A stretch of DNA of 49,722 nt from the IMG/VR virus record IMGVR_UViG_3300025110_000021, positions 1 through 49,722 of that record; one strand, written 5' to 3'. Below, in pieces: positions 24,410-31,016 of this stretch. The position numbers and the translations under genes are program-made. Numbering within the stretch: the stretch's first letter is position 1; each line of letters opens with the position of its first letter. Source of the stretch: a virus. Under the pieces are notes generated by a model. The model was not told where the DNA came from, ran no database searches, and saw only the letters and a list, made by a program, of their open reading frames with translations.

Positions 24410-24530
24410 AATGTTTTTTTATTTATTTTTTTTTATTTATTTATTTATTTATATATATATATATATTATATATATATTATATTAGCTATAGCTATATATA
24501 ATATAATATTACATACAGCTATAGCTTATA
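24410..24530. repeat. AT-only island with short repeats
   Basis: Almost pure A/T DNA upstream of the exonuclease gene, with a TTTA tandem run, TA runs and two copies of the palindrome AGCTATAGCT (24484-24493 and 24517-24526), 33 bases apart. The gap between genes (24376-24540) contains no reading frame. It could hold a promoter or an easily melted replication element. It resembles the island at 30953-31016. Confidence 0.6.
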
Positions 24531-24540
24531 ACAGGGATTA

Positions 24541-24858
24541 TTATTTACTTGTGTATATTCTTGTTATGCCGTCAGTAGTACCAGTCATTTTCTTTCTATA
24601 ATCCAAGACATTTTGCTTGAATGTTTTATTTTCATCCATTGCTTGTATTTGTATGTCTGGAAAGAAATTGCTTTTATCATCATCATTATATCCGTATTTA
24701 TCACTACAAGATTGGCAATATGCACTTCCTCCAATTATAACACCGCCATTTATTTTGTCTCCGTTTTCAGGATATGGCCCATTGCAACCATCGCAACAAA
24801 CTTCTTCACCTGCATTTATAACTTCGACAAGTACAGCGTCGTCAAATATCCCTTTCAT
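24541..24858 (-). CDS. Putative zinc-binding protein in AAA+/VWA operon
   Basis: 105 residues. Cysteines CCDGC (about 21-25) and CQSC (about 48-51) make a likely four-Cys zinc finger around a glycine-rich turn. The rest is polar. It overlaps the end of the upstream gene (ATGA-type) and is the last gene before the AT island. No family recognised. Confidence 0.55.
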   Translation of the reverse strand: MKGIFDDAVLVEVINAGEEVCCDGCNGPYPENGDKINGGVIIGGSAYCQSCSDKYGYNDDDKSNFFPDIQIQAMDENKTFKQNVLDYRKKMTGTTDGITRIYTSK

Positions 24859-25073: not shown

Positions 25074-25113
25074 TTCGACTCCTTTTTTTATTATAAAAAT
25101 CTTTTACTAGGTG

Positions 25114-25152
25114 CAGAGAGCATGGGAAAATCGATAAAACCCATGCCCTCTG
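25114..25152 (-). other. Long stem-loop in AAA+/VWA operon
   Basis: CAGAGGGCATGGG and CCCATGCTCTCTG (minus sense) pair over 13 bp with one G-U and a loop TTTTATCGATTTT. On the plus strand the G-U becomes an A/C mismatch, so the RNA is the minus transcript. No uridine run follows. It separates the 25176 gene from the 25073 gene and could be a processing site, a stability element or a protein-binding site. Confidence 0.6.
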
Positions 25153-25156
25153 TTCT

Positions 25157-25175
25157 TAATAGCTAAACGCTATTA
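25157..25175 (-). other. Hairpin abutting the stop of the 25176 gene
   Basis: TAATAGC-GTTTA-GCTATTA in minus sense is a perfect 7-bp stem with a 5-base loop, directly after the TAA stop and 4 bases before the longer stem at 25152-25114. The two form a tandem structure in the mRNA. Confidence 0.45.
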
Positions 25176-25822: not shown

Positions 25823-26872
25823 TTATTTAAGTTTTTTGCAAGCCTCCATAAATGTTTTTCTATCTACAACATTTGGAATCATTGTTAAATTTCTAAAATT
25901 ATGCGGAATACATCTACCAGTAAGCGATTTCATGTATTCTAAGCAACTTCTTCTGTTTTCTGTGCAAAAATAATATACTTTATTATGTATGGTATTCTTA
26001 GCAACTGTTACAAATCCATCAAAATCGCCAAAGAATATAATGGTTCTATTTTTAAATAAGCTCCATCTATGTACATCATTGCACACATCTTCAACAGTTA
26101 AAAATTCTACAAATTCTTTTTTCTTGCTATTATAAATATGAACTAATCTAGCATTTGGAGCATCATATAGTTCGATATCTCCATAATTAGTAGATTGAGT
26201 TGCTATTTTACTATAAAAATCAGATTGTCTTGCACAAGATGGACTGCTATCTAATAAAAGCAATACATTATGTTTTTCTCTAGTATTGCGACATTTATAT
26301 ATTGATTCTTTATTCAAAGTTCTCATAGCCAATCTATCAGCATCCCAAAAATCATCTCCATCAATAGTAGCTCCTACATTATCTTCTGCTACCTTACTTA
26401 TTACTGTTGATAATGTTATTGCTAGTCTTCTATCTCTAGCTGAATCAAGATTATATCTACCAGCTCTTGCTGGTTTTTTAGTAACTCGACTATAATCCTT
26501 AGCACTTTGAAAATTATCTAAAAGGTCTTGTTGCTCTTCTGTAAGGCATCTATACATTTCATCAAATTCATTATAATCGCTATCGGAATCATAATCGCCA
26601 TGCATCAACTTAGACATCTTATCTAAATTATTTTTGCTTTTGTTAAATTTTTCAGTAACATTTTTAGAATTGTTATGGTACTTGCTCAATCCGAGGGGCT
26701 TTAAACCCCCCGGATTGTTCGCTTTAGACTTAACATCAATATTGCTAGTAATTGGTTTACTTTCAGTAGTTTTGAGTTCAGGAGTTTCGTGTTTTATAGT
26801 CGCTCTACCAAGATTACTCTCGCTACTAAATCTACGCCAATTAACTTGCAGTGGATTTGAACTTCTTTTCAA
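25823..26872 (-). CDS. VWA-domain protein, partner of MoxR-type ATPase
   Basis: 349 residues from a TTG start (AGGA 10 bases upstream), overlapping the ATPase gene by 32 bases. Residues 1-95 are polar and disordered-looking. From about 200, HNVLLLLDSSPSCARQ carries the MIDAS metal site D-x-S-x-S (Asp208, Ser210, Ser212), and RTIIFFGDFDGF (277-287) is the following strand with further acids. This is the arrangement of CobT-like VWA proteins that work with MoxR/CobS AAA+ ATPases. Target unknown: metal insertion, complex assembly or disassembly are all possible. Confidence 0.75.
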   Translation of the reverse strand: MKRSSNPLQVNWRRFSSESNLGRATIKHETPELKTTESKPITSNIDVKSKANNPGGLKPLGLSKYHNNSKNVTEKFNKSKNNLDKMSKLMHGDYDSDSDYNEFDEMYRCLTEEQQDLLDNFQSAKDYSRVTKKPARAGRYNLDSARDRRLAITLSTVISKVAEDNVGATIDGDDFWDADRLAMRTLNKESIYKCRNTREKHNVLLLLDSSPSCARQSDFYSKIATQSTNYGDIELYDAPNARLVHIYNSKKKEFVEFLTVEDVCNDVHRWSLFKNRTIIFFGDFDGFVTVAKNTIHNKVYYFCTENRRSCLEYMKSLTGRCIPHNFRNLTMIPNVVDRKTFMEACKKLK

Positions 26873-28985
26873 GTGATTTTATCCTATTTATTTTTTGTTT
26901 AATCTCAAGCGATAGCATTGATTCATCATAATAATCTGGTTCTATGAACGCACAGAAGATTACATAGTCGTAAACTACATGAGCGAATACATTACTATTA
27001 GATAATGTATTAGAATTATTACGAGTAAGACTCCAGCCAGCTTTATTTAGCTTGGTACGAATATCTCCATCATGTTTAAAACATCTGTATAATGGTAGAT
27101 AAGGCAACCAATGGATTATATGCCCTAATATCTTAGGATGCACTATTCCATTAATGTTTAACTTCATCATTCCAAGAGTGTAACCTTCAATGTTATTGCA
27201 TATTAATTCCATATTTTTAGAAATTATTGCAAATCCATTTTGAATCGATTCTACCTTTACCTTGCTAATGGTACGACTTGATGAAGATAGGTTGACTAAA
27301 TCGTCAAAAAATGGCACATCACGCAATTCGCATGATGAAGTACCACTTGGCGATTGTAACCATATCGCATCACAATAACCCTTATGTTCACTTAATGACT
27401 TTAATACGCTGTTGCCAATAGTGTAAGTATTATTGAGTACTTGATTTTTCAAGTCTGTAACTGCAATTTTATTGCTTGATTTTGGACAAATCGTATTTTT
27501 TATAGCTTCTCTACCTAATTCACTTTCTTGAATTGTAAATATAGTAGCCAAATTATCTTTGCGATTCATCCTAAATAAGCTACAATAATTTGCAGCAGTA
27601 CCGCATATAACTTCAAGACCTTTACCTTCACGAAATCTTAAGTCAATTTTTTCACTGCCATCTAATCTTGCAATGATTTCCTTATCATCTCGCTTATGTA
27701 TCAACCACTTGCCACGCAACATTCTATTTACTTCTTTTCTTGTAACATATTTATCAACAAGCTTTATTTCACCATTAATTCTTCTAAATAGCTCTGTGTA
27801 GTCTAAATATTGCACATGAACAGAAGTGTAAACCTCAGTTGAAAAAGTATAGTTATCTGTAATGGCCCCCCATTCAGGTAACGATGCCAAATTTGGGTCA
27901 TCGCCATCTAAATTTTGAGACATCAACGCATTATCAGCTAAGCTTTTGATGCGTTCAGCATTAGTATTCTTATTAGTTGAGGTTCTTTTAAGAACAAGTG
28001 TAGCATCACTAGGAACATATTGAACTGGTTTGAACGAGCTGTTGAATTTAGACAAATCTCTAAGGTCAGGCATTGCAGGTTCATTCTGTTCATTACGAAG
28101 TGGTACATTGTCCACGCCATAATCATCAGCTTTTATCTTTTTCAATTTAGTAGTTGAAATATTTTCAACTTTCTCTTGATTGGATAGCAAGACATGATTT
28201 TCAGGCGTTTTTGTTATATACTGATACACCAATGAGTTCCAATCAGCTCTACTACCAAGTAATTCTATAGCATCCATCAACTGTCGTAATTCTTGTATCG
28301 TTGCAGGTTTAGGCAAATTTGCACTAATACTGCGTGTATACAAGTCAATCATTTGAGGAATGTAAGAATTGCCATCGTGAGTTAATTTCAAAGCAGATAA
28401 AACATCAGCTGGTTCTATTGGGTCAACATGAATCATTGGAAACCTACGAAGTAGAGCTTCGTGAAACTCACGCTCATCATTTGCAGTGATAAATATGGTT
28501 AAATTATCCAAATTAGCTTGGATATTACCACCTTCAACACCGGGCAATGATAAACGACCATATTGTAGGAAATCTAAAAAGAATCCATCTACGCTAGGTC
28601 GTGTTTTATCCCATTCATCCAACATCAGCATTACTGGTCTGTTATTAGACTCAATAGCAGCTTCGTAAATCTTACCATGCCCTATCTTGACACCTGAAGT
28701 AGTATCTTCAGATGGCATTATTTTGATGAGCAAGTCTTCTTCACGAGTGCCTTGGGTACATTGATGTACAAAAAGCTGGCGTTCCAACACTTGTGCAAGT
28801 ATCATTGGTAAGTAAGACTTACCTGTTCCTGCCATACCATACAGAAAAGCACCACTAACGGGCTTCGTATTAATAGCTGTTAGTATTTTGTCTGTGAAGT
28901 CAGGTGAGCAAATATACCCACCATCATTCAAAGCATCATGTAAACTGCTATTATTGTATTGTATGTCGGTTGTTGTTACCGCCAT
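26841..28985 (-). CDS. MoxR/CobS-type AAA+ ATPase with long C-terminal extension
   Basis: 714 residues, AAGGAAG ribosome binding site. The AAA+ core is in the first 270: Walker A GMAGTGKS (50-57), Walker B LMLDEWDK (Asp123, Glu124), sensor 1 FITAND (Asn169), arginine finger ALLRRFP (180-181). About 440 further residues have no motif I know, several times a normal MoxR tail. A ring ATPase with a VWA partner remodels proteins or inserts metals. It is the largest early gene and follows a structured RNA leader (29009-29148). Confidence 0.82.
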   Translation of the reverse strand: MAVTTTDIQYNNSSLHDALNDGGYICSPDFTDKILTAINTKPVSGAFLYGMAGTGKSYLPMILAQVLERQLFVHQCTQGTREEDLLIKIMPSEDTTSGVKIGHGKIYEAAIESNNRPVMLMLDEWDKTRPSVDGFFLDFLQYGRLSLPGVEGGNIQANLDNLTIFITANDEREFHEALLRRFPMIHVDPIEPADVLSALKLTHDGNSYIPQMIDLYTRSISANLPKPATIQELRQLMDAIELLGSRADWNSLVYQYITKTPENHVLLSNQEKVENISTTKLKKIKADDYGVDNVPLRNEQNEPAMPDLRDLSKFNSSFKPVQYVPSDATLVLKRTSTNKNTNAERIKSLADNALMSQNLDGDDPNLASLPEWGAITDNYTFSTEVYTSVHVQYLDYTELFRRINGEIKLVDKYVTRKEVNRMLRGKWLIHKRDDKEIIARLDGSEKIDLRFREGKGLEVICGTAANYCSLFRMNRKDNLATIFTIQESELGREAIKNTICPKSSNKIAVTDLKNQVLNNTYTIGNSVLKSLSEHKGYCDAIWLQSPSGTSSCELRDVPFFDDLVNLSSSSRTISKVKVESIQNGFAIISKNMELICNNIEGYTLGMMKLNINGIVHPKILGHIIHWLPYLPLYRCFKHDGDIRTKLNKAGWSLTRNNSNTLSNSNVFAHVVYDYVIFCAFIEPDYYDESMLSLEIKQKINRIKSLEKKFKSTAS

Positions 28986-29008
28986 AACGCTTCCTTTTTT
29001 TGTTATTG

Positions 29009-29148
29009 GCTCGACACCTTGTCAAGCACAAATCTTTTAAATCTTTGCCCCCTATAGAAACATGACTAACTACAAGGGGCTGTTGTGAGTAAATCCACGC
29101 TCCCTGCAATACCGCCATAAATGGAGTAAAGGCGATACCACAAGGAGC
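29009..29148 (-). ncRNA. Three-hairpin structured RNA upstream of the AAA+ gene
   Basis: In minus sense: (1) GCTCCTTGTGGTATCGCC with GGCGGTATTGCAGGGAGC, 18 bp, 14-base loop (29148-29099); (2) GCCCCTTGTAG with CTATAGGGGGC, 11 bp, 12-base loop (29080-29047); (3) GCTTGACA-AGG-TGTCGAGC, 8 bp (29027-29009). All eight non-Watson-Crick positions are G-U in this sense and A/C on the plus strand, so the minus RNA is the folded one. The AAA+ start lies 24 bases beyond. It could be a leader switch, an attenuator or a processed small RNA. The region is GC-rich for this genome. Confidence 0.75.
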
Positions 29149-29162
29149 TACCTTCCGTATCT

Positions 29163-29486: not shown

Positions 29487-29900
29487 TTATCTACCTAGTA
29501 GTTTTCTCATTGCTATTTTAAAGTCTAGTTCGCTACTATTATCGTTATCATATACATTGAATGTGCGTCGTATTCTTTGTAGCATCCATTCATTTCTATC
29601 TTTCTCAAAGGTTACTAGCTTATTCGGTCTGTATCTTGTGCCATTAGGAATACCAGCGTAATAATCATCAAACTCTAGCCCTTCATCATGTAGCGTTGTT
29701 GTTACTCCTGTGATGTTATTATGTATCAGCACAGGTATCTTCATTTCTTCACCATCTTCATTTACTGCTAGTAAGGTATCATCGCTAAACATCTCCGTTA
29801 CAAACTTCTTTTGGTCTTTGCTAGGTATGTTCTTAACAATTGATTTATTACCAACTGTGATGGTCAATTTATTCTTTTTATCTATAAATATCGTTACCAT
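29487..29900 (-). CDS. Hypothetical early protein
   Basis: 137 residues. The start is beta-rich (MVTIFIDKKNKLTITVGN) and the C-terminal third is basic (NEWMLQRIRRTFNVY). GIPNGTRYRP may be a loop. No family recognised. First gene after the terminator at 29966-29997, so it depends on read-through or a promoter I cannot place. Confidence 0.5.
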   Translation of the reverse strand: MVTIFIDKKNKLTITVGNKSIVKNIPSKDQKKFVTEMFSDDTLLAVNEDGEEMKIPVLIHNNITGVTTTLHDEGLEFDDYYAGIPNGTRYRPNKLVTFEKDRNEWMLQRIRRTFNVYDNDNSSELDFKIAMRKLLGR

Positions 29901-29965
29901 AATTAATTTATTGTCATGTTTTATTTGTTGTAAGTGTTCTGAGTGTGTGTGTCAAAAATATACTG

Positions 29966-29997
29966 TAAAAAAAGGGTATCAATTAAGACACCCTTTT
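29966..29997 (-). terminator. Rho-independent terminator or attenuator
   Basis: Minus sense AAAAGGGTGTC-TTAATT-GATACCCTTTT is an 11-bp stem with one G-U and a 6-base loop, and the T-run goes on to seven T. It lies 29 bases after the stop of the first early gene and before the rest of the minus block, so it should give that first gene more transcript than those downstream. Confidence 0.75.
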
Positions 29998-30704: not shown

Positions 30705-30735
30705 AAGGGAAGGGATACATATGTAAGAAATGTAT

Positions 30736-30763
30736 ATAACATATATTATGTATAATTGAGTAA
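30736..30763 (+). repeat. 28-bp tandem regulatory repeat, copy 1
   Basis: Begins ATAACATATATTATG and ends TATAATTGAGTAA. It matches the copy at 30790-30817 in 26 of 28 positions, 54 bases away. Each copy carries a palindrome followed by TATGTATAAT, a -10-like sequence pointing along the plus strand. Confidence 0.6.
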
Positions 30764-30789
30764 TTTTGTCGACTTACTCAGAATGTCGT

Positions 30790-30817
30790 ATAACATATGT
30801 TATGTATAATAGAGTAA
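30790..30817 (+). repeat. 28-bp tandem regulatory repeat, copy 2
   Basis: Begins with the perfect 14-bp palindrome ATAACATATGTTAT and ends TATAATAGAGTAA. With copy 1 it may form a pair of binding sites or tandem promoters firing toward the plus-strand genes. No -35 hexamer is evident. Confidence 0.6.
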
Positions 30818-30890: not shown

Positions 30891-30952
30891 TTAAAAGAGA
30901 TATACACATTGTACACCAATTTTTGAGATTTCCACACATTTTCTCTTTCTTT

Positions 30953-31016
30953 ATGCTTATATTATATATATATTATATATATATAGCTAATATTAGTATA
31001 ATATTATATTAAGCAT
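30953..31016. repeat. AT-rich imperfect palindrome, origin candidate
   Basis: ATGCTTA (30953-30959) and TAAGCAT (31010-31016) bound a core of almost pure A/T made of TATATTATATAT-type runs. A DnaA-box-like ATTTCCACA lies 17 bases before it (30928-30936). The divergent intergenic position, G-tract and AT core together make this the best origin candidate in the window, unproven. Nothing else coding is seen from 30534 to 31099. Confidence 0.4.

Follow-up and report, generated by a model that had tools for sequence, protein, structure and literature searches.

A covarying hairpin in a phage operon leader has a loop complementary to the operon's first start codon and may repress translation of the head genes

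The window, as we call the whole stretch of DNA analysed here, is the 49,722-nt virus record IMGVR_UViG_3300025110_000021 (positions 1 to 49,722), which encodes a P22-type portal, a terminase and a DnaB-like helicase. Ranked by E-value, the annotated phage matches listed for the terminase are headed by Helicobacter pullorum phages, at just ~26% identity, which does not identify a host. The minus-strand gene block considered below is taken to be an operon and runs from a terminator-like hairpin through a leader, the first AUG and open reading frames of 137, 60 and 42 aa to a structured leader, the AAA+ gene and further genes (Table 1). The first AUG, at 29917, opens a frame of four codons and lies 17 nt ahead of the start of the 137-aa gene at 29900. 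The three-stem segment that is the subject of this study, 29009–29148, is intergenic within this block.

The second gene after the structured leader encodes a 349-aa protein whose conserved DSSPS motif can be read as a VWA metal site, and an AAA+/VWA gene pair is therefore likely in the window. Such a pair, an AAA_5-type ATPase beside a VWA-like DxSxS gene, is present in several uncultured phages. No solved relative of either protein was detectable by sequence, and searches with the AAA+ protein returned no match among annotated phage records and none among bacterial genomes. The minus-strand block is flanked by long AT-rich palindromes with TATAGCTATAGC-like cores, and similar palindromes occur at matching places in three related contigs (L002, L065 and L066). 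Between divergent gene blocks there are also two near-identical 29-nt copies (93%) of TATAACATATATTATGTATAATTGAGTAA, which are internally palindromic and operator-like. A second intergenic element of the same operon, consisting of two hairpins followed by AAAAGAUUUUUAUAAUAAAAAAAGGAG, precedes a 72-aa gene; its counterparts in L002, L033 and L063 have stems that are clearly different yet still paired, and comparison of its loops with starts gave no convincing target.

Table 1. Positions of the features discussed in the text, in window coordinates.
Feature	Positions	Strand	Description
Flanking palindrome	24431–24570		AT-rich
Second intergenic element	25079–25175	-	before 72-aa gene
ATPase and VWA-like gene pair	25823–28985	-	
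AAA+ gene	26841–28985	-	AAA_5 domain; followed by 349-aa gene with VWA-like DSSPS motif
A-rich unpaired segment	28986–29004	-	Shine-Dalgarno AAGGA ahead of AAA+ start
Hairpin 3	29009–29027	-	8-bp stem directly upstream of A-rich ribosome-binding region; conserved
Linker	29030–29046	-	tandem AAAGAUUU AA AAGAUUU; inserts between the two copies in relatives
Hairpin 2	29047–29080	-	11-bp stem, loop UUAGUCAUGUUU; conserved, covarying
Loop segment	29058–29066	-	GUCAUGUUU; complementary to operon's first AUG region
Hairpin 1	29099–29148	-	18-bp stem, 14-nt loop; from the fold; window only
Loop target	29913–29921	-	AAACAUGAC at operon's first AUG; complement of hairpin-2 loop
Operon-head leader	29928–29949	-	CACACACUCAGAACACUUACAA; conserved
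Terminator-like hairpin	29965–29997	-	operon head; same place in relatives
Repeat pair	30735–30817		29-nt copies
Flanking palindrome	30941–31014		AT-rich

A first-pass annotation of this DNA had described the segment as an undescribed RNA with stems of 18, 11 and 8 bp, in which all eight non-Watson-Crick positions are G-U in the minus-strand transcript. Its coordinates for the segment proved exact, and RNA folding of the minus strand recovered the three stems. By hand count the 37 pairs hold eight G-U (5+2+1) and no other mismatch, a tally in which counting G-U as a pair is partly built into that annotation's choice of strand. It had also proposed a comparison of folding energy with shuffled controls, and we found that the minus strand (-60.4 kcal/mol versus a shuffle mean of -35.7; z = -7.07) outperformed all 200 shuffles, while the plus strand gave z = -1.74. 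In a GC-corrected scan of both strands of the window, the segment ranked first in structure among 1420 segments of 140 nt, and the structured leader extends to the AAA+ start (about 28986–29162). The segment is indeed undescribed as far as Rfam 15 is concerned, as no family reached its gathering threshold and loose thresholds returned only sub-threshold chance matches. A tRNA search gave no match in the segment and no tRNA in the relatives' contigs, and a search of a phage DNA collection likewise gave no match.

Several familiar classes of element were rejected for the leader. An intrinsic terminator does not fit, with no U run after hairpins 1 to 3 (the following bases being GUGGAUU, AAAGAUU and CAAUAAC) and none of them in the terminator listing. 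The Shine-Dalgarno sequence of the AAA+ gene is unpaired and A-rich in the leader fold and no Rfam riboswitch was found, which speaks against a riboswitch or a leader that sequesters the ribosome-binding site. A leader-peptide attenuator, or a peptide translated from the loop AUG, was set aside since this AUG has no Shine-Dalgarno sequence, the frames differ between phages and no terminator follows.

Searches with the AAA+ protein yielded seven viral contigs at 51–64% identity; the 349-aa and 137-aa proteins, used as queries in turn, brought in further contigs that were more distant or shorter. L003, L033, L062 and L070 are one contig, as are L004, L009, L063 and L071, and L005, L034, L064 and L073; we refer to these three as L033, L063 and L034. 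A structured leader precedes the AAA+ gene in every close relative, with modules that differ between phages, and its folding relative to shuffles was weak in L063 (z = -0.6) and L033 (z = -1.9). Hairpin 2 is present in the window, L002, L033, L063 and L034, and hairpin 3 in these five and in L065. The pairing of hairpin 3 is consistent across phages, with covariation not above shuffles. No counterpart of hairpin 1 was found in the leaders of any of the relatives, and we regard it as an accessory module of the window phage, perhaps concerned with RNA stability or processing. When its loop was compared with all starts, the best match at a real gene was the Shine-Dalgarno sequence of a 207-aa gene (GGAGUAAA, 8 bp); this candidate was rejected, as complements resembling Shine-Dalgarno sequences are expected by chance.

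The slot flanked by AAAGAUUU linkers varies between phages, being empty in some and in others occupied by an insert of structured RNA or by a small ORF with a hairpin. L033 has a structured insert of ~120 nt there, and L063 a 70-aa ORF and a further hairpin, so that hairpins 2 and 3 are separated in both. A search of viral contigs with the 16-base linker pattern returned mostly chance matches. Because hairpin 1 lacks a counterpart and long inserts lie between hairpins 2 and 3, the hairpins are modules and not one unit, and the notion of a single 140-nt three-stem unit is not supported. The more distant contigs L078 and L082 share another leader hairpin, CUYCGC...GCGGAG around an inner hairpin, directly upstream of the AAA+ start.

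Covariation in hairpin 2 was assessed in the five phages that carry it, which share ancestry. All 50 stem cells are paired, every varying stem position is compensated, and five of ten pairs are changed on both sides. The covariation score was 0.77 versus 0.24 in shuffles, with 0 of 500 shuffles as high, and sliding the partner abolished the covariation. Across the five phages the stem comprises 42 Watson-Crick, 8 G-U and 0 A-C pairs, which backs the strand asymmetry independently and indicates that the constraint acts on the operon-strand RNA. The loop, with its UCAUG core, is more strongly conserved than this varying stem. A covariance-model search found one copy of hairpin 2 in each of the five phages, and no further copy elsewhere in 25 sources or in eight whole records. 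Relaxing the pattern in a search of viral and bacterial contigs produced 26 bacterial and a few viral matches with poorly formed stems, which we took to be chance; the best scored 23.7 bits versus 54–67 for the hairpin-2 family. A lack of compensatory changes in homologous phages had been named as grounds for giving up a functional RNA, and in hairpin 2 such changes were found. That claim thus stands for hairpin 2, with compensation in relatives and folding beyond shuffles, and does not carry over to hairpin 1, which has no evolutionary support. Together, these comparisons argue strongly that hairpin 2 is a conserved RNA.

Chance folding, or a palindrome that matters at the DNA level, for example as a protein-binding or replication site, would suit hairpin 1 taken alone, as well as the second element of the operon, which folds about equally on both strands. 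Given that the z score near -7 is confined to the transcribed strand, and that hairpin 2 covaries with G-U and no A-C pairs, we consider this explanation of the segment extremely improbable, in agreement with the first-pass view that the asymmetry is hard to attribute to chance or to a DNA palindrome.

The most informative feature, absent from the earlier annotation, is the complementarity between the hairpin-2 loop and a start codon. In all five phages with hairpin 2, the complement of the loop sits at the first AUG past the terminator-like hairpin, upstream of the loop by 855 nt in the window and by 1.2–2.3 kb in the relatives. The head sequences that match the loop are AAACAUGAC in the window, AAAACAUGAA in L002, AAAACAUGACUA in L033, AAACCAUGAC in L034 and, with one G-U, AAAACAUGA in L063. 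Within the nine-base core, 45 of 45 cells pair across the five phages. The pairing is kept by compensation: at -2 an A-U pair has become C-G in L034, and at +5 a C-G pair has become A-U in L002 and is U-G in L063, which amounts to two double changes in loop and head and one G-U in a small sample of five phages. The AUG motif is kept even in the window and L063, where the frame it opens is just 4 or 6 codons long.

We found that the first AUG forms the best duplex with the loop among all ATG starts on the strand, of which the five phages have 69, 12, 22, 23 and 22, and that random 44-nt stretches pair with the loop as well in 0.13–1.6% of cases. Loop and head are mutual best partners, with no better partner for the loop between the head and hairpin 2 and none for the head within the leader. 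Predictions for most phages leave both sites relatively open, the weak cases being the head in L033 (predicted openness 0.03) and the loop in L034 (0.07). The diverged contigs L065 and L066, which lack hairpin 2, also lack the AAAMCAUGA head; in L065 a loop matches the Shine-Dalgarno region with one bulge, and in L066 no loop/start pairing and no convincing target was found. Judged on five related phages with two double changes, support for the predicted loop/head pairing is good. Either compensating change taken singly would fit ~30% of starts, and in L002, L033 and L034 other or later starts of the operon match the loop nearly as well, so the start contexts may owe a shared consensus to something else, or the loop may target more than one start in the operon.

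In the early region of phage T7, strong intercistronic hairpins between operon genes are recognized by RNase III. By analogy, the leader hairpins could serve mRNA processing and stability, as RNase III sites at which the polycistronic transcript is cleaved or as blocks to exonucleases that shield the 5' end of the AAA+ message, the loop/head match being incidental. This would account for strong intergenic hairpins that lack a U-tract, for the further hairpin element, with its A-rich ribosome-binding segment, that lies ahead of the 72-aa gene of this operon and has counterparts in relatives, and for modules that vary while their position is kept; the 18-bp stem of hairpin 1 is a plausible RNase III substrate. 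Processing leaves unexplained why the loop of hairpin 2 is more conserved than its stem and why, in five phages and through compensating changes, this loop matches the first AUG; we consider this explanation unlikely.

The additional matches in L002, L033 and L034 would also fit a small RNA acting in trans, either processed out of the leader or made from its own promoter, with the hairpin-2 loop as an antisense seed on the first AUG and other starts; a loop of this kind would be effective in trans no less than in cis. For the promoter types scanned, promoter-like sites fell below the shuffle mean, no more than chance would give, and the hairpins are not followed by a terminator, which deprives the discrete small RNA suggested in the first-pass annotation of support from a promoter or a terminator. 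Moreover, in relatives the set of three hairpins is broken up by long inserts, and the best target always lies within the same operon. We therefore regard a trans-acting RNA as distinctly unlikely.

A conserved loop read by a protein on a variable stem is known from coat-protein operators, and hairpin 2, with its conserved UCAUG loop, covarying stem and position adjoining the AAA+ gene, could be read likewise by the phage AAA+ protein or by a host factor. Such an operator would not explain why the L034 loop changes exactly as its head does, and domain searches of the AAA+ protein and the product of the next gene revealed none that binds RNA. We think an operator very unlikely, and saw no sign of the partnership between the RNA and the ATPase that the first-pass annotation had raised.

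We propose instead a cis-acting, long-range interaction between the loop and the start codon that would repress translation of the operon's first genes, a reading to which we give roughly an even chance. Hairpin 2 in the AAA+ leader would present an open loop of 12–14 nt; once the polymerase reaches the leader, the loop would pair with the first AUG and the A-rich bases upstream of it on the same polycistronic mRNA. The resulting duplex of 9–12 bp would block ribosome entry at the operon head, and the first small genes would be translated less relative to the downstream AAA+ and VWA genes. In the window the duplex would occupy bases -21 to -13 as counted from the start of the 137-aa gene, within the ribosome landing zone, where there is no clear Shine-Dalgarno sequence. 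Hairpin 3 and the A-rich stretch would keep the ribosome-binding site of the AAA+ gene open and isolated. We infer all three parts of this proposal, namely that head and leader share one transcript (from gene order), that they pair in cis and that the pairing represses.

Long-range translational control is known in kind; the new part is a coevolving anti-start hairpin in a dsDNA phage operon, of which we found no example in a limited open-access literature. The likeness to T7 lies in strong hairpins between phage operon genes. The difference is the loop-start complementarity, which we know from no T7 RNase III site; cleavage of the leader hairpins is conjectural. In RNA phages of the MS2 type, distant pairing in a polycistronic RNA limits access to a start site. 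Long-distance interactions in RNA phages such as MS2 are mentioned in PMC9894550. The distant pairing in a polycistronic phage RNA is shared with our proposal; those RNAs are genomes, whereas the RNA considered here is transcribed from a dsDNA phage and has a dedicated, covarying hairpin. In the Escherichia coli infC-rpmI-rplT operon, bL20 binds the rpmI-rplT message at two sites, one of them a long-range pseudoknot (PMC10931766). The pseudoknot too governs translation within an operon mRNA, but requires a ribosomal protein as repressor, whereas in the phage no protein is known and the order is reversed, with the loop downstream of its target.

The closest experimental precedent that we found is Staphylococcus aureus icaR, where the Shine-Dalgarno sequence pairs with a 7-nt motif of the 3'UTR that lies ~0.84 kb further downstream; this pairing, which was tested by mutation, keeps ribosomes from loading and favours cleavage by RNase III (PMC3868564). 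In both cases a distal downstream motif is complementary to the start region of its own mRNA, a shared mRNA that in the phage follows from gene order, and in the five phages the complementarity is maintained by compensation. The icaR message is a single-gene bacterial mRNA with a 3'UTR motif and a Shine-Dalgarno target, whereas the phage element is an intra-operon hairpin loop that is found in several phages and whose predicted target is the AUG itself.

More broadly, and more tentatively, hairpin 2 might represent a new class of phage operon control, which we regard as possible but doubtful: a modular anti-start hairpin that coevolves with the start-codon context, pairs over 1–2 kb and shuts the head genes once the AAA+/VWA module has been transcribed, possibly acting on several starts, in cis or as a processed RNA in trans. 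The proposal makes predictions at the level of single bases. Two further contigs, L090 and L093, have the heads GGAAAUAUGACAA and AAAAAACAUGAAG and end before the leader; if these phages carry hairpin 2, their loops are predicted to be approximately GUCAUAUUUCC and CUUCAUGUUUU, respectively. Matching bases of loop and head should likewise be interchangeable. Hairpin 2 together with a complementary first AUG provides a searchable marker for other phages, in which structured intra-operon RNAs are easily overlooked. If the proposal is true, it would describe an economical timing device in a dsDNA phage, in which the message silences its front genes once its back is made.
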